From assembly GCA_015493505.1 (NCBI GenBank), contig WGDA01000084.1:1-43845 (forward strand): a stretch of 43,845 bases of DNA, given 5' to 3'. Every line of letters starts with the position of its first letter. Position 1 is the stretch's first letter. Of this stretch, positions 8,242-19,979 are shown piece after piece. The DNA comes from Pseudomonadota bacterium (GTDB taxonomy: Bacteria > Desulfobacterota > S145-22). The notes beneath the pieces are model-generated. The model was given only the letters and a program-made list of their open reading frames with translations. It was not told where the DNA came from and did no database searches. The position numbers and the translations under genes are program-made.

Positions 8242-8763
8242 GGTAGGTGTGAGACCGCAGCCGCAGTTAAGTAATTTCGAAAGGGTAAAGGAAGAAACTC
8301 AGGGATTCTTAACTCTGCAACATAGATATCGATTTTAGATTTTAATCACAGCCGGTGGATTGATTGGCTCTGATGGCCCTCAATTGTGTCCCTCAGGCTC
8401 CAATCTCCCCATTTATCGTTCCTTACAATTGAGATGGATATCTCACGATCACTCCACTGATCTCGCCGAATGTTGTGCTTGCGAGTTGGATGCAAGTTAT
8501 AAAAATTAGCCAAAAAAAGCATCCAAAGAAGTAAATAAATATATTATTGTGATATATTAGAATGTTGTAGTTATATTTTAAAGTATAATGTTAAATATAT
8601 TTATACGAAATTATATTTGATTTTAGCAAAATTTTATGTATTTTAAGAAAAAATAGAGCAATGTAGATATAATTTTTACAAGCTGATGGTTTGTGAGAAA
8701 AAAAGATGGAGGACAGGGTATTAAATTAATGTAGAATATTGAAAAACAAATTAAGGATTTAAA
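8242..8763 (+). other. Intergenic region, strongly AT-rich in its right half
   Basis: No open reading frame of gene-like length was seen on either strand. The left part (to about 8500) has ordinary composition and contains a 9-bp perfect inverted repeat, 8379-8387 (CTCAATTGT) and 8425-8433 (ACAATTGAG), separated by 37 nt. From about 8500 to 8760 the sequence is dominated by A and T, with many TATA-like words, including a perfect TATAAT at 8668-8673. The region separates the GC-richer nuo operon from the lower-GC signalling module and probably carries the promoter(s) of the latter. No clear Rho-independent terminator for the nuo operon was found. Confidence 0.7.
8710..8737 (+). promoter_or_regulatory. 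Candidate sigma70-type promoter for the signalling module
   Basis: AGGACA (8710-8715) and TAGAAT (8732-8737) are separated by 16 nt. This would start transcription near 8744, just upstream of the ribosome-binding site AAGGAT (8753-8758) and the ATG at 8764. A second possible -10, TATAAT at 8668-8673, has only a weak -35 at a long spacing. In DNA this AT-rich such words arise easily, so this is a proposal from position and match only. Confidence 0.35.
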
Positions 8764-9660
8764 ATGATAGCATTAAATGGCAAGGTTCCGTATTTTAGTT
8801 TATCCAGTATACTTCGATTTTTATATTCAAATAAGATTACAGGCGCGTTGATCCTTACAAGAAAAAATGAACGGATGAGGATTTACCTTTCGCGAGGTAA
8901 GGTTGTCGGGGCGGAATCTGATCGCAAAGAACACAACAGTCCCATTGAAAACCTAATTGATTTGGCTGTGTGGTTGGACGGAGAGTTTAGATTAGAGATC
9001 CTTCCCGAAGACAAACTCATTAGGAATATCACGGTCCCATCAGATCAGATTACACTTCTTCTGGTAAAAAAAGAAAACGCATTCAAAGAATTAAAGGATG
9101 ATCTTCCCCCTCTGGGCTCTGTTTTGATTATGAATCCAGAGAATAAGACCGAAGAAATCAGACTGCAACCTGATGAGTGGAATTACCTTTCAAAGATAGA
9201 TGGCAAAAAAACGCTCGAAGATCTAATCTTCTCGTTAGACATGAGTGAATTAAATATTTTCAATATTACGGTTAAATTGATTCAAAAGGGAATTCTCAAA
9301 ACACGGGGGGCTCCAGAAACAGTTCAGAAAGTGGAATCCCCCGCAGGACAAAAGGTAAAAGAAGAAGAAACGGTTGAAAAAGAGGTGAAAAAACCGAAAA
9401 ACCAGATAGGGACCGCGCCCCTTTCGCCGAGCCCTGATAAAAAACTGGGAAACATAGAAAAGGTATTTGCGAAGTATGTGGGGCCTATGGCCACGATTAT
9501 AATGGATGAAGTCGTTGACTCGCTGGATGTCGAAGGAGGAAAAACTTCAAAGGAGGCGCTTTCAACCTTGGTTGAAAAGCTTTGTATGGAGTTGGAGTCA
9601 GAGGAGGAAAGGAAAGCATTTGAGGAAGAAGTATTCAGCCTGATGAAGCGGGATGAATAA
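8764..9660 (+). CDS. DUF4388 (PATAN-like) domain protein
   Basis: 298 residues, no signal peptide or membrane segment, so probably cytoplasmic. The N-terminal ~110 residues look like a DUF4388/PATAN domain: LNGKVPYFSLSSILRFLY, then KITGALILTR, then IYLSRGKVVGAES. In other bacteria this domain occurs in two-component and gliding/pilus signalling proteins; its biochemical role is unclear. Residues ~110-180 look like a small winged or helical segment (YLSKIDGKKTLEDLI). A charged, K/E-rich linker (~190-225) leads to a C-terminal helical domain (FAKYVGPMATIIMDEVVD onward) that resembles short C-terminal modules attached to some bacterial kinases. It is first in a five-gene same-strand run with MglA. 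Exact function unknown. Confidence 0.75.
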   Translation: MIALNGKVPYFSLSSILRFLYSNKITGALILTRKNERMRIYLSRGKVVGAESDRKEHNSPIENLIDLAVWLDGEFRLEILPEDKLIRNITVPSDQITLLLVKKENAFKELKDDLPPLGSVLIMNPENKTEEIRLQPDEWNYLSKIDGKKTLEDLIFSLDMSELNIFNITVKLIQKGILKTRGAPETVQKVESPAGQKVKEEETVEKEVKKPKNQIGTAPLSPSPDKKLGNIEKVFAKYVGPMATIIMDEVVDSLDVEGGKTSKEALSTLVEKLCMELESEEERKAFEEEVFSLMKRDE

Positions 9661-9687
9661 AATCAAAAATGATTTAAGGAGGATAAA

Positions 9688-10566
9688 ATGTCAGATAAAA
9701 AGACTGTAAAATTCGGATTATTCCCAAAATTTTTACTTTCTTTTATTCTAATTGCCATCATCCCCATGTTGCTTATCGAGTATCTGTCATTTAAGGGGTT
9801 GCTGGATTTTAAGAAGAACGTGATTCCCGAGAGCAAACGGATTATAACAGATCTTTCTACTTCAAATATCAGGCAGAGAGCCTTGGACGTCGCCAAAGAA
9901 ATGGAGATCTATTTAAAATTAAAGAAAAACATGACGGTTGAAGAAATGCAGCATGACCCGTATTTGAAGTCCATAGCCGTGCAGCCCGTGGGGCGGACTG
10001 GGTACACAGCCGTGCACACAAACGCGGGTATTAATATTTTCCATAAAAACCCAAAAATTGTTGGTATGGACCTGCATAAGCTCAAAAATAAATTCCCTAA
10101 ATTTTGGGCAATCCTCGCAAAAAGCCTGAAAGGCCCCGCGAGTGGCTTTTACAATTGGAAAGATGTCCACGGCAAGGTTCGAGAGAAGTACATGTATTGC
10201 GCCCCGGTAAAAGGAACAAACCTCGTCGTTGCGGCGACGACTTATCTCGATGAATTTTACGCTCCTATCAATCGTCTTGAAGCTGCTGCGAATGAACAGC
10301 AACACAGCATTTTTCTCTACATCCTGATTGTTTCTGTCGCGTTCATCATTTACATGATTGTTTTCTCATATATTTACGCGAAAAGCATCACAAAACCGAT
10401 TTTGCATCTCGCGGATGTGGCTGACAGGATAAGTGTTGGTGATTTGGATGCCGAAGTGGACGTTAAAACTTCTGATGAAATCATGATTCTGGCAGGTGCT
10501 ATCAGCCGAATGCAGAAGAGCCTGAAATCAGCGATCGTACGGCTGAGAGAAAAGAGAAAAAGATAG
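9688..10566 (+). CDS. Cache-HAMP membrane sensor lacking an output domain
   Basis: 292 residues. A transmembrane helix at ~12-30 is followed by an extracytoplasmic region (~35-205) with Cache-type features (GRTGYTAVHTNAG, KGPASGFYNWKD, YMYCAPVKGTNLVVAATTYL), a second helix at ~207-230 and a HAMP domain at ~231-283 (SITKPILHLADVADRISVGD, then DEIMILAGAISRMQ). The protein ends right after HAMP with a short basic tail. There is no methyl-accepting, kinase, cyclase or phosphatase domain, so it resembles the front half of a chemoreceptor. The strong Shine-Dalgarno AAGGAGG 5 nt before the ATG fixes the start. No continuation of a signalling domain appears after the stop, so this does not look like a frameshift. 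The likely role is to pass a small-ligand signal to a partner in this cluster. Confidence 0.85.
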   Translation: MSDKKTVKFGLFPKFLLSFILIAIIPMLLIEYLSFKGLLDFKKNVIPESKRIITDLSTSNIRQRALDVAKEMEIYLKLKKNMTVEEMQHDPYLKSIAVQPVGRTGYTAVHTNAGINIFHKNPKIVGMDLHKLKNKFPKFWAILAKSLKGPASGFYNWKDVHGKVREKYMYCAPVKGTNLVVAATTYLDEFYAPINRLEAAANEQQHSIFLYILIVSVAFIIYMIVFSYIYAKSITKPILHLADVADRISVGDLDAEVDVKTSDEIMILAGAISRMQKSLKSAIVRLREKRKR

Positions 10567-10608
10567 AGGAACAGGCAAAAAGAAGGGATGACAAAAGGAG
10601 GGTTTTTC

Positions 10609-11847
10609 ATGTTTTGGCCCAGAAATCACGTCAGGTACGAAAATCTGAAGTCATCTTTCGTGAACCTTGAAAACCTTTTGGAAGATTTGGATACGGAGAG
10701 CTTTGAAGGTTTCCTTGAGATCGTGTTTGGTGAAGAGTTTTACTATCTGTTAAGGCGGCCGGGGCTAAAGGGCGGCATTTATCTCAAAGATAAAATGGGA
10801 AGATTCATCCCCGCTGAAATTTCGTTGACAGAGATCCAGGCAAGGTGCCATCAAGAAAATGCCATTATCAATGTCTATGATGTCAACAGGGAGCAACTTG
10901 AGTTTTTATCCGAATGCCTGAATTCCACGCCTTTATACACAAATCTTTCCAGTGAATTCACGGATTTTGAAAAGCTACTTTCCAAGCTGTCGAAAGACAC
11001 GCACACGGGCTACCTTGAGGTCTCCTTTCAGGACGTGCCGACTGAACCATGCTATATCTTTTATCAGCAAGGGGAAATTGGTGGTATTCTCTGGGGTGAC
11101 CATCAGTATGAAGATGCGGAAAAGGGAATACAAGAAATAAGCACGAAGCTCCGGGAAAATGAAGCGCAGTTTAACGTATATCAAATTGAAAGGGTGTCTG
11201 TAACGGAGAGGGAAGAAGCCCCGGAAATCGATTTGAACCATGAGCGGGAGACAGCTGCTGAACCCCGCATCCCGGAACCTGAAGAACCTGTTTCAGAACC
11301 AGAGTTCAAGACGCCGGAAAAGCAGCCTGAAGTTACAGAAGAAAAAACTGTAACGTATGAGGAAAACGAGGCGGCGGTTTCTCCTGTGGAAAATGAAATC
11401 CCCGGACAGGCTGAAACGCCACGGGCAGATGCTGAGGACAAAAATAAATTGGAAAATCTTTCGATTTTTCCTTACCTTGATTTCGCTGAAGCGCTGATTC
11501 AGTGGGTTGAAGAAAATGTGAACAAAGTGATGGGGAAAAATTATTTCTCCAAGGCCTTCAAGAAAGGGTTGTTGAATATATCGGACAAATACCCCTTTTT
11601 GGACCCGTTTCTCGCGGAGTTTACCTACATGGATGGGAAGATAACCTTTACTTCCGAAGCCACGGCGATAGAGTTTCTCAAGGGTATCTACGCGGCAATC
11701 GAAAGCTTGTTGGAAGAGTTGACTGTGAAAGAGAGAGAAAATATTCAAAAAAGATTGAAACAATCGCTGAGGCGGCTTGAGAAGATCCACCATGAAAATA
11801 TTGAAATCCTTCGTGTCAGAACGCTTATGCCAACACTTTTTCAGTAA
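10609..11847 (+). CDS. Protein with duplicated DUF4388-like domain and conserved helical C-terminus
   Basis: About 412 residues. I chose the ATG at 10609 because AGGAGGG (10596-10602) lies 6 nt upstream; an in-frame ATG at 10588 would place that site inside the gene. Two similar segments follow each other: the first has GFLEIVF, GLKGGIYL and INVYD; the second has GYLEVSF, EIGGILW and FNVYQ. This points to an internal duplication of a DUF4388/PATAN-like fold. A Glu/Pro-rich acidic linker (about 205-285) joins them to a C-terminal helical region with GKNYFSKAFKKGLL, KYPFLDPFLAEF and a coiled-coil-like end. No membrane segment. Function not recognised; position directly upstream of the MglA-type GTPase suggests a partner or regulator of it. 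Confidence 0.65.
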   Translation: MFWPRNHVRYENLKSSFVNLENLLEDLDTESFEGFLEIVFGEEFYYLLRRPGLKGGIYLKDKMGRFIPAEISLTEIQARCHQENAIINVYDVNREQLEFLSECLNSTPLYTNLSSEFTDFEKLLSKLSKDTHTGYLEVSFQDVPTEPCYIFYQQGEIGGILWGDHQYEDAEKGIQEISTKLRENEAQFNVYQIERVSVTEREEAPEIDLNHERETAAEPRIPEPEEPVSEPEFKTPEKQPEVTEEKTVTYEENEAAVSPVENEIPGQAETPRADAEDKNKLENLSIFPYLDFAEALIQWVEENVNKVMGKNYFSKAFKKGLLNISDKYPFLDPFLAEFTYMDGKITFTSEATAIEFLKGIYAAIESLLEELTVKERENIQKRLKQSLRRLEKIHHENIEILRVRTLMPTLFQ

Positions 11848-11859
11848 AGGATTTCATGA

Positions 11860-12474
11860 ATGTCATTCATAAATTTCAGCTCAAATGAGATACAGTGTAA
11901 AATCGTTTATTATGGTCCAGGTTTGGGGGGGAAAACAACAAACCTGTTATATATTTATGAGCATACCAACCCGGATATTAAAGGGAAAATGATCTCTATC
12001 GACACAAAAGGCGACCGCACGCTCTTTTTTGATTTTCTTTCGCTGAATCTCGGTAAGATCAGGGATTTCAAAATCAGGATCCAGCTTTACACCGTTCCGG
12101 GCCAGGTAACTTATGATTCCACGAGGAAGCTCGTGCTGAAAGGGGTGGACGGCGTTGTGTTTGTCGCTGATTCCATGATGATAAAAAGGCAGGAAAACAT
12201 TGACAGCCTTCAAAATCTTGAGGCAAACCTGGCGGAAAAGGGAATCAATATTTTCGATATCCCCCTGGTTCTTCAATACAACAAACGTGACCTTGAAAAC
12301 GGCAATATACCTATCTTGACGATTGAAGAGCTGCAGCGGGATTTGAATCATGATCTTCATGTGCCTTATTTTCCCGCAAGCGCCATAAACGGCGTGGGAG
12401 TTTTTGAAACATTGAGGGAAATCAGCAAACGGGTCGTAAAGGCTGTGAGCCTTAAGATTTTGGCAAAACGGTAA
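11860..12474 (+). CDS. mglA: MglA-type small Ras-like GTPase
   Basis: 204 residues, nearly co-linear with Myxococcus xanthus MglA, the polarity GTPase that directs type IV pili and gliding motors to the leading pole. Seen: MSFINFSS start, P-loop GPGLGGKTTN (residues 19-28), switch-region Arg R53, PM3 motif TVPGQ with T78 and Q82 in the same register as the characterised protein, DSTRKLVLKGVDGVVFVADS, and guanine-specificity NKRD (141-144). R53 and Q82 are known catalytic residues in MglA, so GTP hydrolysis is probably retained. No Roadblock/LC7 (MglB) gene is recognisable beside it, although mglB usually precedes mglA. The ATG at 11860 follows AAAGG; it sits 12 nt after the preceding gene and 14 nt before the next. 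Confidence 0.93.
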   Translation: MSFINFSSNEIQCKIVYYGPGLGGKTTNLLYIYEHTNPDIKGKMISIDTKGDRTLFFDFLSLNLGKIRDFKIRIQLYTVPGQVTYDSTRKLVLKGVDGVVFVADSMMIKRQENIDSLQNLEANLAEKGINIFDIPLVLQYNKRDLENGNIPILTIEELQRDLNHDLHVPYFPASAINGVGVFETLREISKRVVKAVSLKILAKR

Positions 12475-12488
12475 TAGGGAGTTTTCAA

Positions 12489-14156
12489 ATGAAAGACGAA
12501 GACCTTGAAGAAAAGCTAAAGGATATTGAAAAAGAGATTGATAGCGCGATCGACCAACTGTTTGTCGATAAAGTGGCGGAGGAGCCTCCCGCACAAGCTA
12601 TGATGGACATGGGCCCAGAAACTTCCACTCCCGAAGAGGAAAGCAGCGCGGGACCTACGTCAGAAGCACTGGACAATGAGGTGGAACCGGCAAAGCCTGA
12701 AGATGCTGGCGAAACAGGTATAACAGAAAAATACTCTGATGTTATAGACACGTTGCAATCTAAAGTTGAAGCGTTTACGGAATGGGGTGTCACGGATGTC
12801 GCTTTAGAGAAAATCCTGTCAGAAATTCACGAAATAAAAAATGCCTTTGGTGAAAGAAAGTTGCTGGCGTCTGTGGTCAGCATGATCACCGAAGTACTGA
12901 ATTTTCTGAAAGAGAACCCAACTTCACACGTGCCTGAACTGGTAGAATTTCTTTCCAACGCCTTGAACGCCATAAAAAAACTTATTCATTCGGCAGATGA
13001 AACGTCTCCTGAGGACAAAGAATTATATGACGCGATCAACACGCAGTTTTCAGAGATTTCCACGCTTCTTACGTTTGATATCGACACGATAGAGCTTGAA
13101 GAAAGATTCGCGCTTCCAGGTGACGAAGGGGAAAAATTGGAGGAAACGGAGTCCAAGGAAAATATCGAGCCCATAGACCTTGGCATTCACGGTAGTGCTG
13201 AAACCAGTCAAAAGGAGACTGCCGCTCAGGAAATGGAAGAAAGCGGTGAATCTGAGGAGAAAGGAGAGAGGGAAAAAATTGTTAACTTAAGCATGAGCTT
13301 TCTTGAACCAACCGATAGGGAAGCGGAAGTCCTTGAAGGCGATGAGGGCGCGGCACCCGAAAAAGAACAGGCTGAAGCGTTAGATGTGGGCATTTTTGAT
13401 ATGAAAAAGGTGCCTTCAGAGACTTCTTTAGATGAAGTCGAGGCAAGAGGTTCTGTTGAAACCGCAGAGGGTGAGCGTCAGCCAATCCCCCCGGCAAGTG
13501 TTGTGGCGTCTTCTCCGATTGAGAAATTCCATGAGTTGACGGATGAGCTTCGTGAAACGTTTAAAAGCGTTGAGAAGGTGTTTTTTGAGTCTCACACGAT
13601 TCCGGAGCTTATGGAAAAACTCACGGTCGCGATGGAAGCCCTCAAGAGTCACACAAACAGGCTTCTAACTGTAAAAAGTGCGGGAGTTCAATCCGAAAAT
13701 GAGTTAAAACAGTTACAGAATACCGTTTCGGAACTCAGGGATGATTTTGAATCGTTGTCCGAGCTGTTGGCTCCGGAGGGCATAAACCAATTCAACGTTG
13801 AAGAAATCGTTCCGGTCGTGGTTGGGAAAAAGATGGTTGGCGTCAGCACCAAAGGTATCGGGCAGATATATTCAATTTCGAAAACCCAGGAAGAAAAATT
13901 TTTGAGAGAAGGTAAAATAACACTTAAAGGCGAATCGATTCCTGTCGTCAATCTGTTTGAAGAATTCGCTGAGGTTTCGCAGAATCCTAATAAACGTTTG
14001 ATTGTTGTAAATGGCACGAATGGTTCAAGGGCCCTTTTGGCGGACAAGGTCCTCAAAAGATGTTTCGCGCTGGTTTCGGGTGAACCGGGGGCTCACGATG
14101 TAAGGACGGTCAAGTTCTACGTGGTTGAAGAGATTCCTCTGTATGAAATACCATGA
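12489..14156 (+). CDS. Long acidic protein with C-terminal CheW-like domain
   Basis: 555 residues. The first ~430 residues are Glu/Asp/Ser-rich, with low-complexity acidic stretches and helical segments (e.g. FTEWGVTDVALEKILSEIHE and KFHELTDELRETFKSVEKVF) and no membrane helix. Residues ~435-555 show the pattern of a CheW or CheA-P5 fold: VEEIVPVVVGKKMVGVSTKG, then ITLKGESIPVVNLFEEFAEV (the counterpart of the usual 'lRGevlPvvdL' strand pair), then KRLIVVNGTNGSRALLADKV. The match is by pattern and is degenerate, so it is an inference. CheW-like domains connect receptors to histidine kinases; no CheA or receptor signalling domain is encoded in the window. The ATG follows GGGAG. It is the last gene before an AT-rich gap. 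Confidence 0.65.
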   Translation: MKDEDLEEKLKDIEKEIDSAIDQLFVDKVAEEPPAQAMMDMGPETSTPEEESSAGPTSEALDNEVEPAKPEDAGETGITEKYSDVIDTLQSKVEAFTEWGVTDVALEKILSEIHEIKNAFGERKLLASVVSMITEVLNFLKENPTSHVPELVEFLSNALNAIKKLIHSADETSPEDKELYDAINTQFSEISTLLTFDIDTIELEERFALPGDEGEKLEETESKENIEPIDLGIHGSAETSQKETAAQEMEESGESEEKGEREKIVNLSMSFLEPTDREAEVLEGDEGAAPEKEQAEALDVGIFDMKKVPSETSLDEVEARGSVETAEGERQPIPPASVVASSPIEKFHELTDELRETFKSVEKVFFESHTIPELMEKLTVAMEALKSHTNRLLTVKSAGVQSENELKQLQNTVSELRDDFESLSELLAPEGINQFNVEEIVPVVVGKKMVGVSTKGIGQIYSISKTQEEKFLREGKITLKGESIPVVNLFEEFAEVSQNPNKRLIVVNGTNGSRALLADKVLKRCFALVSGEPGAHDVRTVKFYVVEEIPLYEIP

Positions 14157-14503: not shown

Positions 14504-15556
14504 GTGGGGAAAGGCGCGTATCTTATCGGGTTGGATATTGGCTCAAGTTCCGTCAAGCTGGTTGAACTAAAAGAAAAGAAAGGGCACCCTGTTTTACATC
14601 ATTTGGGGGTTGTGCACCTCGCGCCTGAAACAATTGTCGAAGGCACAATCATTGACAGTTATGACCTGATTAACGCCATCAAACATCTCATTTCCGCTCA
14701 CCACATTAAAAACCGTAAGGTTGCCATCTCTGTTTCCGGCACCCCCGTTATCGTTAAGCGATTGACTTTGGGATACATGACGGACAAGGAACTTGCCGAA
14801 ACGATTGACTGGGAGGTTGAGCGGTACCTTCCCTTTGATCTGTCCGAGGTTAACATCGATTATCATATCATCAGAAGCGATGAAGAGAAAAATCAGCTTG
14901 AGGTTTTAATCGCGGCGGTCAAAAAAGAAACGCTGGAAGAATACCTTTCTGTCGTCGCGGAAGCTGGCCTGAAAGTCCGAGTAGTGGACGTGGACGCCTT
15001 CGCGATGGAAAACGCGTATCTTTTTTCGGGCCAGCGCGAAAAAAACCAGACAGTAATTTTGGCCAATATTGGCGCCAGCCTTATGAACCTGAACATTGTG
15101 AGCGAAGGGGAAACCATGTTCACTAGGGATATCGCCCTCGGTGGAATCAATTTCACCAAAGAGATTCAAAAACAGATTGGTGTAACGTATGAGGAGGCGG
15201 AAAAACTTAAAACGGGAGGAGAACTGGATCCGGCGCAGGAAATCATCGTCAACAACGTTCTGGAAACAGCCAAAGAATCCCTTTCCAGCGAAATTTTAAA
15301 ATCCATCAATTTTTACAATTCAACGTTTGAAGGGAACGAGGTCAAGGAAATCGTGCTTTCCGGCGGGTCAGCCTTGATGAACGGTATCGCAGAATATATT
15401 CAGCAATCACTAAATATCCCGACAAGCATTATAAATCCGTTTGAAGATGTCGATATTAACAGCAAAACGGTTGATATAGATCTCATGGAAAAAACAGCCC
15501 CCATGTTTACGGTTGCCTTTGGGCTGGCTTTGAGGAGAGAAAAAGAGGAGAAATGA
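14504..15556 (+). CDS. pilM: Type IV pilus assembly protein PilM
   Basis: 350-residue actin-like cytoplasmic ATPase that binds the N-terminus of PilN and starts the PilMNOP alignment complex. FtsA/actin-fold motifs are visible: LIGLDIGSSSVKLVEL (phosphate-1), VILANIGASLMNLNIV (phosphate-2) and EIVLSGGSALMNGIAEYI (adenosine site), plus the PilM hallmark DWEVERYLPFDLSEV. It begins with GTG at 14504 after AAGGAGATTA. One base separates it from pilN. Confidence 0.97.
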   Translation: MGKGAYLIGLDIGSSSVKLVELKEKKGHPVLHHLGVVHLAPETIVEGTIIDSYDLINAIKHLISAHHIKNRKVAISVSGTPVIVKRLTLGYMTDKELAETIDWEVERYLPFDLSEVNIDYHIIRSDEEKNQLEVLIAAVKKETLEEYLSVVAEAGLKVRVVDVDAFAMENAYLFSGQREKNQTVILANIGASLMNLNIVSEGETMFTRDIALGGINFTKEIQKQIGVTYEEAEKLKTGGELDPAQEIIVNNVLETAKESLSSEILKSINFYNSTFEGNEVKEIVLSGGSALMNGIAEYIQQSLNIPTSIINPFEDVDINSKTVDIDLMEKTAPMFTVAFGLALRREKEEK

Positions 15557-15557
15557 A

Positions 15558-16100
15558 ATGATAAAAATCAATCTCCTGCCTCTGCGAGAGGAAAAGAGAA
15601 AAGAGAGAAAGCGGCTGGATATCTCCGTCAGTATCTTAATGCTCATTTTGACCGTCCTGATTGGCGGTTATCTGTATATCAATGTTTCAGGAGAGATCGA
15701 GAGCCTCCAGATTCAGATCAGGTCAAAAAAGGCGGAGGACGCCCGTTTGACGAGAAAAGTGGGGGAAATCAGGGTCCTCAAGAATAAGAAAAAAGAGCTA
15801 CAAAAAAAGATCGGCATTATTAACGCGCTTAACCGACAACGTTTGACGGCCATCAAGGTGATGGAAGAATTAAGCATTCAAGTTCCGGATAAAATCTGGT
15901 TTAAATCCCTTACGGTCAGAAATCACCGGCTTACGATTACCGGAATATCTTTGGATGACCAGACATTGTCCAATTTTATCTCAAGATTGAATCACTCGGT
16001 AAGATTTAAAAATGTCTGGCTTCAGGAGTCCAAACAGATTGTGTTAAACCAGGTGAAGCTAAAAGCGTTTTCACTCAATTGTAATGTCGTAACGGAGTAG
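15558..16100 (+). CDS. pilN: Type IV pilus assembly protein PilN
   Basis: 180-residue bitopic inner-membrane protein. The N-terminal MIKINLLPLREEKRK carries the INLLP motif that docks into PilM. A transmembrane helix at ~24-45 is followed by a coiled coil (IESLQIQIRSKKAEDARLTR region) and a C-terminal ferredoxin-like fold expected to dimerise with PilO. Coupled to pilM (1-nt gap) and pilO (4-nt gap). Confidence 0.95.
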   Translation: MIKINLLPLREEKRKERKRLDISVSILMLILTVLIGGYLYINVSGEIESLQIQIRSKKAEDARLTRKVGEIRVLKNKKKELQKKIGIINALNRQRLTAIKVMEELSIQVPDKIWFKSLTVRNHRLTITGISLDDQTLSNFISRLNHSVRFKNVWLQESKQIVLNQVKLKAFSLNCNVVTE

Positions 16101-16104
16101 AAAA

Positions 16105-16725
16105 ATGGCTCTGACATTTCAAGACATCCAGGGTCTCCCGTTTTACAAAAAATTTCTGATTCTTCTTGCGGTTCTGGGGGTCCTTTTCGGGTTGTTCTAT
16201 TATTTTATTTACATGCCAAAGCTTGATGAAGTCGCGTCTTTGCGGGCTCAGTTGCGCCAGCTGGATCAGCAGGTTATCCAAAAAAGAAAACTAGTTAGAA
16301 ACCTGAGGCAATTCAGAAAGGAGTTCGCGCTTCTCAAGAAAAAATACGACGAGTCTTTGCGTCAGCTTCCAAATAAAGAAATGATTGACAAAATCCTGAT
16401 GGATATAGCGAGATTCGAGAGAAAGGAAAGCCTCGAATCAATCCTGTTTAAGCCTAAAAAAGAGATAAAAGCCGGTTTTTACGCCATCGTGCCGGTACAA
16501 ATACAAATTCGCGGAACCTACCACCAGATAGGAAATTTCTTTGTCGACATCGTCAATCTGCCAAGAATTGTGAACATAAAAAGCTTTAAGCTTTCGAAAC
16601 CCAAAGACGTGAATGGCGAAGTCGTGCTGACGGCTGATTGCGCGATCGAAACATACAGATATATCCCAGAGAGCGAGCGTCCTAAGAAAAAGGGGAGAAG
16701 GAAAAATGTCCATAAAAAGAAGTAA
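16105..16725 (+). CDS. pilO: Type IV pilus assembly protein PilO
   Basis: 206-residue inner-membrane partner of PilN. Transmembrane helix at ~13-37, coiled coil ~45-90 rich in R/Q/K/L, then a periplasmic region with YHQIGNFFVDIVNLPRIVNI, a characteristic PilO stretch, and a basic Lys-rich tail. Its 3' end overlaps the pilP start by 20 nt. Confidence 0.95.
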   Translation: MALTFQDIQGLPFYKKFLILLAVLGVLFGLFYYFIYMPKLDEVASLRAQLRQLDQQVIQKRKLVRNLRQFRKEFALLKKKYDESLRQLPNKEMIDKILMDIARFERKESLESILFKPKKEIKAGFYAIVPVQIQIRGTYHQIGNFFVDIVNLPRIVNIKSFKLSKPKDVNGEVVLTADCAIETYRYIPESERPKKKGRRKNVHKKK

Positions 16726-17356
16726 ACCCGGGAAAATCTCGCGAGTGGGTGTCGCCTCGATTGTCATCACCCTTTTCGCCTTTGGGGTGTTTGTGGGGGG
16801 GTGCGGCAACAATGAATCTACGTCCGTCCCTATCAGTCAGGAGGCTGTCGCTATCAAAAAGAAGATAAAATATACCGTTTCTCAAAGCCTGAAAGCCAGG
16901 CAAATCCATCACAAAAAGCAGCAGACGGCCAAAACTGTCAAACCATCCGCCTTGAAGGTTAAAAATGGAAAGGGTAAAATTATAGAAGTTCATTACCGGT
17001 CAAATATCGCGAAGCTGCGTGACCCCTTCGTGCCTTTTATCAAATTCGAAACGGAAAAGAACCTCAAACTCAAGGCAAACAAACACCTTCTTCCCCTTCA
17101 GAAATACACCTTGTCGCAGTTGCGTTTAATCGCCATTATAGATGCCGGCAAGAAGGGGCGCTGGGCCATGGTGTGTGACGCGTCTGGAAAAGGGTATACG
17201 GTTCGGGAAGGAATGCCCATCGGAAGTGAAGGCGGGATTATTGAAAAAATCCTCCCAGATCGTATTGTCGTCAAAAAGACACGGGTTGATCTTTTGGGTA
17301 AAAAGAAAATAAGTTTTGCGGCATTAAAACTCCACCCGGAAAAAAAAGGAGAGTAA
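16706..17356 (+). CDS. pilP: Type IV pilus assembly lipoprotein PilP
   Basis: 216-residue lipoprotein connecting the PilNO complex to the PilQ secretin across the periplasm. The signal peptide ends in the lipobox FVGGC (Cys33). A Lys-rich flexible segment precedes the compact C-terminal beta domain with LRDPFVPF, LSQLRLIAIIDAGKKGRWAM and YTVREGMPIGSEGGIIEKIL, all typical of PilP. AAGGAAAA directly precedes the ATG inside the end of pilO. The gene stops 4 nt before pilQ. Confidence 0.95.
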   Translation: MSIKRSKPGKISRVGVASIVITLFAFGVFVGGCGNNESTSVPISQEAVAIKKKIKYTVSQSLKARQIHHKKQQTAKTVKPSALKVKNGKGKIIEVHYRSNIAKLRDPFVPFIKFETEKNLKLKANKHLLPLQKYTLSQLRLIAIIDAGKKGRWAMVCDASGKGYTVREGMPIGSEGGIIEKILPDRIVVKKTRVDLLGKKKISFAALKLHPEKKGE

Positions 17357-17360
17357 AAAA

Positions 17361-19979
17361 ATGTGTCAGCGCGTGATAGGGAAAAGGGATAAAATTTTGA
17401 AAGGCTGGTGGATTTGTTTCGCATTCCTTGTTTCTATAGTGCTCGTGTTTCCGTCTTACGGGGTGGCCTCCAAAGGGGGAGGAACGCAACAGGCGCCTTT
17501 ATGGGCCTGGGTAAACGTCAGAGAAACGCATGTCAGGCAACAGCCGACCGTAAAATCGCCATCTTTAGGTATTTTGCGGAAGGGCCAAGTTGTGAGAACC
17601 TTAAAGTCTGTCAAAGAATGGACAAAGGTAGAGTACGAACTTGGAAAAACAGGATGGATATTCAGTAAAAATATATCACCTGGCCTGCCGGCCACGCTAC
17701 CCGAAGCAGACCGGATTCTTTACCTGAAAGAGGTAAAAACGGGAAATAGAGGTGTCGTAGAGGTCTTCTTCAACGGCGCTATCGGGAATAAGGTAAAGAT
17801 GTTTAGCATGAAGTCTCCCGTTCGCCTCATTATGGATCTTCCGGGCATGAAGTCTTCCCGCAATAGAACCTTTTCTCTTACAAAAGCGTCATTTGTTTCA
17901 AAGGTTAAAATTGGCGTTCACCCGGATAAATCACGAGTTGTATTGTATTTGAACAATAAAATCAGAAAATTTTCCCACAAAATCAGCCTGGAGAAAAATT
18001 CCTTATCTCTCGCTTTTCTGCTTGGGGGGCAAGCCGTGGCAACAAACGCAGCCACAAAAAATGTCCAAAAGACGGCAAAGATTCATCATCAAAAGAAGAA
18101 AAAAGAGGCCATAAAGGCGACCCATCACATCAAGCGCCTTGCGGAGGTAATCAGAACGGGATTCAGGGATGAAACAACACGGTCCATGGTTGTCTTAAAA
18201 TTAACAGAGAAGCCTGCTTATTATTACATCAGGTTTAAGAACGGAAAGGTGGGGCTCATTTTGGATGACGCCTTTATCAGCAAGAGATACATGAGATTTA
18301 TGGACACATCCGCTTTTCCAACCCCCGTAAAAAAGATTGAATTCAAGAACGTCACAGGTACCAAAGAAGGTAGAAAGGCGGAGGTCTGGGTGACGGTAAA
18401 GGGCATGATCAAAAATGACGTCGCCATTGATGGCACGACACTGAAATGGATATTTCAGAAGCCTGAAGAATATATCGCGAAAGCCCAAAAGACTCAAAAG
18501 GTTCAAAAGTTCCCGGTTAAAAAATCGCTTGTCAAAACGTCCGCAACGGTGGTGCAAAAACCTAAGATGAAAACAGCGTCTAAAGTTGCCAAACCCGTTG
18601 CAAGCACTAACGAGTCTAAAAGGGTCCTGCAAGCTTCCGCACCGTCGCACCCACTGTTCATCAAGAAGAAATACACCGGCACCAAGATGTCTTTCGATTT
18701 CCAGCAAGCGGATATTCATAATGTGTTGCGCTTGATTGCTGAGGTCAGCAACCTGAATATCGTGGCTGGGGACGACGTGAGAGGCAAGATTACCCTCCGC
18801 CTGAAGAACGTGCCGTGGGATCAGGCACTGGATATTATCCTTGAATCACAAGGATTGGGGAAACAGAGAATTGGCAATGTCCTCAGAATTGCCCCCATTT
18901 CAAAGCTCAAAAAGGAAATGCAGGAGAAAATCTCGGCCAAAAAAACGGTGGAGAAACTTGAACCCCTTGTTACCTCTTATATTCCCATCAACTATACCAC
19001 GGCAAAAAACCTGTCCATAAAAGTGAAACCCATGTTGTCTTCCCGTGGAACGGTCATGGTTGACGATCGGACAAACACCCTGATTATTAAGGATATTGCC
19101 AAAAAGGTCAAAGATGTGAAGGCGTTGGTAAAGAAACTGGACACGCCAACTCCGGAAGTTTTGATAGAATCCAGGATCGTAGAAGCGACAAAGGATTTCA
19201 CGCGTGAAATTGGTATCAAATGGGGAGCCAATTACAACGCCGGGCCGCAGTACGGAAACGCCCCGAGCTCGAACTTCCCCAACGCTATGAACGTTAGGGG
19301 TGGCGCCACGGGCCAGGCTGGTGGGGGAACAACAACAGGTACCGGTACAACTGGTGGCACAGGATCCATGCCATCCGGCATTCTCCCCAATGTGAATCTG
19401 CCGGCTGCCGCCTCCTACGGAGCATTAGGCGTAACGTTGGAACAGGTGGCAAACATCTTCACCCTGGATGCGGAGCTGACCGCCATGGAGGACAATGGAA
19501 AGGGCCGTATAATTTCCAGTCCGCGTATCGCCACACTCGACAACAAGACGGCAAAGATTGAACAGGGCCTGAGAATTCCTTATCTGAAGATTACAGAAGA
19601 AGGAACCGTGACCACTGAATTCATCGAGGCGAACCTGAATATGGAGGTGACACCTCACGTGAGTAATGATAAAATGATAAACATGCAGGTGCAGGTCTCG
19701 AAAGATACCCCCGACTGGTCACATCTGGTACAGGGGGTGCCCAGCATCGATAAGAAGGAAGCCACAACCAACGTGATGGTTCGTGACGGCGGTGTCACGG
19801 CAATTGGAGGGATATTTACCATAGAGAGGACGAACTCTATTCATAAGGTTCCTTTCTTTGGGGATATCCCGATTCTCGGCTGGGCATTTAAAAACAAAAG
19901 AACAGTCAAAAACCGTAAGGAGTTGTTGATATTTATCTCACCAAAACTTATCCCGTTAAAAGAAAGCAGAAAGAAGTAA
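17361..19979 (+). CDS. pilQ: Type IV pilus secretin PilQ with N-terminal SH3 domain
   Basis: 872-residue outer-membrane secretin that forms the pilus exit channel. Domain order: signal peptide (~1-37); bacterial SH3-like domain (~44-104: WAWVNVRETHVRQQPT ... LGKTGWIFSKNI); AMIN domain (~118-215); a second AMIN-like segment (~260-355); a Lys/Val-rich linker; STN/N0 domain (~440-515: MSFDFQQADIHNVLRLIAEV); secretin N1/NOLW domain (~535-595); and the secretin barrel from ~597 to the end (VLIESRIVEATKDFTREIG, VPFFGDIPILGWAFKNK). AMIN and SH3 domains are expected to bind peptidoglycan. A Gly/Thr-rich insert (~650-690) interrupts the secretin domain. Last gene of the pilM-Q set; the amidase begins 25 nt later. 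Confidence 0.95.
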   Translation: MCQRVIGKRDKILKGWWICFAFLVSIVLVFPSYGVASKGGGTQQAPLWAWVNVRETHVRQQPTVKSPSLGILRKGQVVRTLKSVKEWTKVEYELGKTGWIFSKNISPGLPATLPEADRILYLKEVKTGNRGVVEVFFNGAIGNKVKMFSMKSPVRLIMDLPGMKSSRNRTFSLTKASFVSKVKIGVHPDKSRVVLYLNNKIRKFSHKISLEKNSLSLAFLLGGQAVATNAATKNVQKTAKIHHQKKKKEAIKATHHIKRLAEVIRTGFRDETTRSMVVLKLTEKPAYYYIRFKNGKVGLILDDAFISKRYMRFMDTSAFPTPVKKIEFKNVTGTKEGRKAEVWVTVKGMIKNDVAIDGTTLKWIFQKPEEYIAKAQKTQKVQKFPVKKSLVKTSATVVQKPKMKTASKVAKPVASTNESKRVLQASAPSHPLFIKKKYTGTKMSFDFQQADIHNVLRLIAEVSNLNIVAGDDVRGKITLRLKNVPWDQALDIILESQGLGKQRIGNVLRIAPISKLKKEMQEKISAKKTVEKLEPLVTSYIPINYTTAKNLSIKVKPMLSSRGTVMVDDRTNTLIIKDIAKKVKDVKALVKKLDTPTPEVLIESRIVEATKDFTREIGIKWGANYNAGPQYGNAPSSNFPNAMNVRGGATGQAGGGTTTGTGTTGGTGSMPSGILPNVNLPAAASYGALGVTLEQVANIFTLDAELTAMEDNGKGRIISSPRIATLDNKTAKIEQGLRIPYLKITEEGTVTTEFIEANLNMEVTPHVSNDKMINMQVQVSKDTPDWSHLVQGVPSIDKKEATTNVMVRDGGVTAIGGIFTIERTNSIHKVPFFGDIPILGWAFKNKRTVKNRKELLIFISPKLIPLKESRKK

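Follow-up and report, generated by a model that had tools for sequence, protein, structure and literature searches.

A candidate sensory module of Desulfobacterota built around an MglA GTPase, found without MglB beside pilMNOPQ

How can a signal reach an MglA GTPase at a locus that encodes its own receptor and no MglB, the usual GTPase-activating protein (GAP) of MglA? This question is raised by five genes (g1, g2, g3, mglA and g5) on contig WGDA01000084.1 of GenBank assembly GCA_015493505.1, from a Pseudomonadota bacterium (GTDB: Desulfobacterota, S145-22). We analyzed the whole contig of 43,845 nucleotides, hereafter the window, which is contig 84 of a 2.8-Mb metagenome-assembled genome (MAG) that comprises 174 contigs, with a completeness of 99% and a contamination of 4.1%. 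Two of the genes encode proteins with or resembling DUF4388 (PF14332, which we take to be the PATAN domain), and the others a Cache-HAMP membrane receptor, MglA and a protein with a CheW-like end. Our results point, with evenly balanced confidence, to a sensory module conserved in Desulfobacterota: MglA would be acted on by a PATAN-Cache sensor, and a docking or exchange helix would be provided in trans. This proposal builds directly on the gene content of the locus, its conservation, the loss of MglB at the locus, a motif match on g5 and the conservation of the corresponding pocket on MglA.

A profile of g3 matched 50 of the 395 genomes of the phylum, and the neighbourhoods of 30 full-length g3 loci were read. 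Eighteen of these loci adjoin mglA and/or mglB, and nine, all from family f8, consist of g1-g2-g3 alone, with MglBA-g5-pil at a separate locus (e.g. L047/L049); one more runs off its contig and two have neither mglA/mglB nor the g1-g2-g3-alone layout. In one genus (L182/L183), the genes follow the order g1, g2, response regulator-DUF4388 (RR-DUF4388), g3, MglB, MglA, g5, NtrC-like gene and pilMNOPQ, and L046 presents Cache-HAMP, PhnD-like binding protein, RR-DUF4388, g3, MglB, MglA, g5, histidine kinase (HK), NtrC and pilMNOPQ. The window, where g1, g2, g3, MglA and g5 are likewise linked, fits the composite order g1-g2-(RR-DUF4388)-g3-(MglB)-MglA-g5-(HK-NtrC)-pilMNOPQ, pieced together from L182/L183. 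The same order with extra genes is found in L183, L179 and L046, and it is rearranged in L094, L102, L184 and L185; L094 and L102 present MglB, MglA, g5 without CheW, the C-terminal half of g1, g2, g3 and RR-DUF4388, and so does L140 as far as its contig extends. A preliminary description of the locus had read the five genes as a compact route from an extracellular ligand to the pilus, and had proposed their linkage in relatives as a test: they are kept together in several families and orders, often before pilMNOPQ, in the same or a rearranged order.

Among the g3-mglA loci with enough flanking sequence, the window alone lacks MglB, and all the others have MglB beside MglA. In a tree of 113 MglA proteins, the window sequence groups with L045/L046/L179 (support 98/69, one of these values being under the usual bar), all of which possess MglB. 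Because these nearest MglA relatives and all the other complete g3-mglA loci keep MglB, its loss is placed in the window lineage, and the window most likely carries a reduced copy of the module from which the RR-DUF4388 and HK/NtrC genes were also lost. The functional unit recognized in the preliminary description is upheld by these comparisons, but the absence of MglB is not a design feature of it: only in this genome does the module stand apart from MglAB. A separate, Desulfobacteraceae-type class of MglA (L076, L096, L104, L133 and about ten more) has no MglB nearby and is directly followed, instead, by a DUF4388 protein with two cyclic-nucleotide-binding-like regions.

The window MglA, the only one of this genome, is matched by Arf/Ras in Pfam and carries the G1 motif GPGLGGKTTN, the G3 motif TVPGQ of MglA (T78-Q82, including Gln82) and NKRDL. 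Group 1 of MglA is defined by the TVPGQ motif and an intrinsic Arg finger beside the G2 Thr (PMC4316618), and both are present here (R53, T54). In Myxococcus xanthus, the C-terminal (Ct) helix of MglB occupies a pocket of MglA and confers the exchange activity of MglB; Asp154 and Phe157 of its IDNLF motif contact Lys185 and Lys181 of MglA, and Leu64 and Ile67 line the pocket (PMC6785124). All four pocket positions are found in the window MglA (L64, I67, R186 and K190, as placed by alignment, with a numbering offset of five residues). The FFDF surface, the roadblock interface in M. xanthus, is retained as well.

The counterpart of the MglB helix is found on g5. Where MglB of the Myxococcus and Geobacter type ends in DDDIDNLF, the g5 homologues start with an acidic helix that ends in I/V-D-x-L-F, and the window g5 reads IDQLF against IDNLF. 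Of 42 g5 proteins, 34 carry the core motif within their first 40 residues, whereas its rate in shuffled sequence is 0.9%. The two positions of the motif exclude each other: g5 was present in none of the 46 loci whose MglB bears the Ct motif, and in 38 of the 44 loci whose MglB lacks it, 33 of them with the IDxLF core. An independent count of next genes gave 0/46 and 34/44, respectively. With both the motif and the pocket positions present, g5 is predicted to bind MglA as a ligand of the MglB Ct-helix type. In L051, L068, L069 and L077, g5 starts with two or three copies of the stretch EIDxxIDxLF, a pattern that a docking motif would be expected to show.

The remainder of g5 resembles parts of CheA. 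A model built with 16 sequences (mean predicted local distance difference test, pLDDT, of 65, with well-folded blocks >85) presents the N-terminal helix (residues 3-24), a bundle (73-195), a long disordered acidic linker, coiled helices and a CheW-like domain (about 435-555). The C-terminus is matched by CheW and the CheA P5 domain in Foldseek (E 3.7e-6) and weakly by CheW in Pfam (2.7e-4, just below the cut-off); across the family, Pfam matched CheW in 10 of 16 homologues (best 1.6e-17). The bundle aligns with CheA P1 in Foldseek, with template-modelling (TM) scores by target of 0.63-0.72 and E of 5e-3 to 4e-2, and g5 gave no match to Pfam Hpt at a relaxed threshold. The phospho-His position is not conserved across the g5 family, although the window g5 has a His near it. 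Only P1-like and P5-like parts are present, with no kinase domain, and by its model g5 looks like a CheA-like protein or scaffold without a kinase. Neither the P1/Hpt-like bundle nor the acidic N-terminal helix had been mentioned in the preliminary description, which also passed over the XRE-type gene listed in Table 1.

The domain assignments of that description are otherwise confirmed by Pfam, homologues or fold. DUF4388 was matched in g1 above the cut-off (E 2.9e-8; 34.2 bits against 25), and the C-terminal half of g1 exists as a separate 156-aa gene in L094/L102/L140/L184. In g2, Pfam identified Cache (2.8e-10) and HAMP (2.2e-11) and nothing after HAMP; the protein ends about 10-15 residues later. 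Because this short tail is kept in all homologues, the missing output domain is, as judged from the alignment, a family trait and not a truncation. A PhnD-like periplasmic binding protein encoded beside the Cache-HAMP genes of L045 (5793-6650) and L046 (13320-14189) is a possible ligand-binding partner. The window g3 itself has no DUF4388 or other Pfam match, and its model has no significant fold match in the PDB; that it is a duplicated DUF4388-like protein holds on the basis of its homologues (DUF4388 matched in 21 of 30) and of two similar strand-helix units in the model. Archaeal DUF2226 was matched by 10 of the 30 homologues, which hints at a wider DUF4388/DUF2226 superfamily. We considered g3 as a replacement roadblock or GAP and rejected it, since relatives carry g3 and MglB side by side and the model has no significant match to a roadblock.

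The genes are laid out in Table 1. As first described, five closely spaced open reading frames lie on one strand, all intact and with no internal stops; the successive gaps of 27, 21, 12 and 14 bp suggest, by spacing, a single operon. The set directly precedes pilMNOPQ, a small gene encoding a helix-turn-helix (HTH) protein of XRE type lying between g5 and pilM. Just upstream of and into g1 (window positions 8501-9000), the G+C content drops to 29%, against 40-58% around.

Table 1. Features of the module and of the adjoining pilus genes, with positions in the window.
Feature	Position	Strand	Description
g1	8764..9660	+	DUF4388 (PATAN-like) domain, winged-helix-like region and conserved C-terminal domain (fusion)
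g2	9688..10566	+	Membrane Cache-HAMP receptor; conserved short tail RMQ-SLK-AI-RLR; no output domain
g3	10588..11847	+	Two DUF4388-like units, disordered linker, conserved C-terminal helical domain (YPFLDPFLAEF motif)
mglA	11860..12474	+	Group-1 type MglA
g5, residues 1-28	12489..12572	+	Acidic N-terminal helix EKEIDSAIDQLFVDK, matching the MglB Ct-helix (DDDIDNLF)
g5	12489..14156	+	N-terminal helix, P1(Hpt)-like bundle, acidic linker, coiled helices, CheW/CheA-P5-like C-terminal domain
XRE-type HTH protein, 78 aa	14265..14501	+	Between module and pilM; same position conserved in G001
pilM, pilN, pilO, pilP, pilQ	14504..19979	+	Identified with Pfam; presumed output machine

In the mechanism that we propose, a ligand would bind the Cache domain of g2, and HAMP would pass the signal to the short conserved tail, which would be read by g1 and/or g3. 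Together with g5, these proteins would act on MglA and set its nucleotide state or its location. The acidic N-terminal helix of g5 would dock in the alpha5/beta2-beta3 pocket of MglA, as the MglB Ct-helix does in Myxococcus, and the docked helix would serve in trans as an exchange factor or a tether; with its P1-like and CheW-like parts, g5 would be a kinase-less CheA-like scaffold. MglA-GTP would then activate the neighbouring type IV pilus machine, for which this genome also encodes the ATPases (motors). The locus of the window lineage would have lost MglB along with the RR-DUF4388 protein and the HK/NtrC genes, and the loss of MglB with g5 and the pocket retained fits a helix acting in trans. 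More tentatively, the allosteric exchange helix of MglB may have moved to g5 in Desulfobacterota, splitting the exchange function from the GAP function, and the GAP half may then have been lost in this lineage.

Several observations weigh against this proposal. For the most part, the Ct-helix and g5 classes are divided by a single deep branch of the MglA tree, and because both track this split, their reciprocity probably represents a single evolutionary change. By sequence, the match of the g5 bundle to P1 of the genome's own CheA is weak (hhalign P 0.0019, probability 14%); designed four-helix bundles match it too, and helical bundles are common. By analogy with M. xanthus, the retained FFDF surface suggests that some roadblock partner of MglA still exists. 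A scan of the locus for promoters and terminators yielded no more matches than chance. The contacts between the proteins, the direction in which the signal would travel and an output through the pilus are all predictions; the last of these follows from gene order, from the role of MglA in M. xanthus (PMC7519303) and from PATAN-PilB binding in Synechocystis (cited in PMC10519157). The link to the pilus that had been read from gene order is real in a subset of loci, where pil genes lie beside the module (the window, L046, L179, L183 and L186), but pil genes are absent from the vicinity of most g3-mglA loci; the general output may therefore be something other than pili.

It is possible, if doubtful, that MglB is simply missing from the assembly or encoded elsewhere, and that the conserved sensor is simply attached to a normal pair of MglA and MglB. 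The MAG is fragmented and carries some contamination, and MglA retains the FFDF interface, Arg53 and Gln82. However, MglB stands directly beside MglA in the other complete g3-mglA loci, and here g3 and mglA are separated by 12 bp of unbroken sequence. A profile search found no canonical MglB between these two genes or elsewhere in the assembly. The sole Robl_LC7 matches of the genome are two tandem proteins on contig 11, which score 32 bits with the MglB profile, against about 130-240 for most real MglBs. The window was also considered as a contaminant contig, which is unlikely: in the same-genus genome G001, a pilM at 82% is likewise preceded by this XRE gene.

An unlikely alternative is that the CheW-like end of g5 couples MglA to the CheA/MCP array of the genome, and that the pili are thereby steered by signals of flagellar chemotaxis. 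The fold of this end is consistent with such coupling, and a full set of CheA, CheW, CheB, CheR and methyl-accepting chemotaxis proteins (MCPs) is encoded with flagellar genes on contig 125, a further MCP lying on contig 44 (the ends of the two contigs, L015:3-617 and L014:18298-19995, encode one identical stretch of protein, and the contigs appear to overlap or adjoin in one MCP gene). A better-linked array and MglB elsewhere in the genome had been anticipated as a counter-argument: the array exists but is linked to flagellar genes, and no canonical MglB was found. Within the five-gene cluster, Pfam identified no CheA, MCP signalling domain or MglB, exactly as first described, which leaves it without the parts of Frz-type control, and its own Cache-HAMP receptor lacks a hairpin to which CheW could bind. 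Moreover, g5 lacks the CheW end in L094, L102, L140, L185, L186 and L187, the rest of the module being kept. The CheW fold of the proposed adaptor is confirmed but, because it is absent from several family members, it is an optional end across these homologues and not the heart of the module.

Still less probable is that the contig-11 roadblocks took over as the GAP of MglA in trans. The first of them shares 41% identity with a roadblock domain that, in the related pil-mgl loci L048 and L050, forms a fusion with the RR-DUF4388 protein. However, orthologues (81% and about 72% identical) adjoin a DUF4388 gene in the family member G005, where neither MglA nor PilM was found, and the roadblocks are thus not tied to this GTPase. 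The G005 orthologues come after a gene for a DUF4388-roadblock protein and have a 169-aa gene between them; in the window genome, the tandem roadblocks lie upstream of 5-oxoprolinase (PxpABC-like) genes (L013:158-966).

We attach a similarly low probability to a module that mainly controls transcription rather than pilus polarity or activity. Winged-helix matches in g1 and its homologues, the XRE gene kept before pilM in G001 and the NtrC regulators in the loci of relatives would be consistent with this role. However, the winged-helix matches are weak and spread over different HTH families, an MglA GTPase with DUF4388 proteins would make an unusual transcription circuit, and the XRE gene, near-identical in G001, is outside the module of other families. 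Finally, mglA was not found in two same-genus and three same-family genomes (G001-G005), of which G001 alone has PilM and is uninformative on the module as its contig begins just upstream of the XRE gene; this patchy occurrence might suggest chance neighbours without joint function, an explanation already contradicted by linkage that recurs in many families with rearranged order, and which we consider nearly excluded.

Compared with MglA/MglB of M. xanthus, where Frz, RomR/RomX and type IV pili are involved (PMC6785124, PMC3441718, PMC7519303), the window shares a group-1 MglA (Arg53, Gln82, TVPGQ), a likely pilus output and an acidic helix predicted to dock on MglA alpha5. It differs in that MglB is not encoded at the locus, that the helix is on a separate CheW-ended adaptor, and that the input would be a dedicated Cache-HAMP receptor with DUF4388 partners instead of an MCP/CheA array. 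The genes are also linked here, whereas mglA of M. xanthus is not near its response-regulator partners. An MglB variant with the RomR helix in place of the Ct-helix has been built (PMC6785124). The actinobacterial conservons CvnABCD (PMC4316618, PMC13343842) likewise combine a membrane sensor, an MglA-type GTPase and uncharacterised proteins, along with a roadblock, in a compact conserved locus; their sensor is a histidine kinase and their MglA belongs to group 2, in contrast to the receptor without output domain and the group-1 MglA found here.

DUF4388 (PATAN) proteins near group-1 MglA or MglB genes have been noted as occasional (Makarova 2006; Wuichet and Sogaard-Andersen 2014, as cited in PMC4316618), but the literature examined does not describe a fixed module that comprises Cache-HAMP, g3 and g5 and is linked to pilMNOPQ. 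In Synechocystis, PATAN response regulators bind PilB (cited in PMC10519157), which similarly places a PATAN-type domain beside type IV pilus control; g1 and g3 differ in having no receiver domain, and the cyanobacterial pathway, as far as that source describes it, is without MglA. FimL of Pseudomonas aeruginosa is an Hpt-like regulator of type IV pili with Gln in place of the phospho-accepting His (PMC3019171). Similarly, g5 has an Hpt-like region without a conserved phospho-accepting histidine, although FimL is linked to the Chp system, unlike the g5 locus. To our knowledge, FimL has neither a CheW domain nor an MglA-docking motif. In the open-access literature, we found no description of the module, of a kinase-less CheA-like adaptor or of a relocated helix, and the locus appears to be an unreported variant among MglA signalling modules.

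Little has been established on how the polarity switch MglA receives environmental signals outside Myxococcus. Beside pilus genes, the locus unites a compact set of parts that has been conserved repeatedly (a receptor, PATAN proteins, a GTPase and an adaptor), and it offers a concrete peptide-pocket prediction together with a natural case of MglA without its usual GAP. If the exchange helix has indeed been relocated to g5, the MglA switch of this lineage would be driven by a Cache-HAMP/PATAN receptor and a helix-bearing adaptor without MglB.

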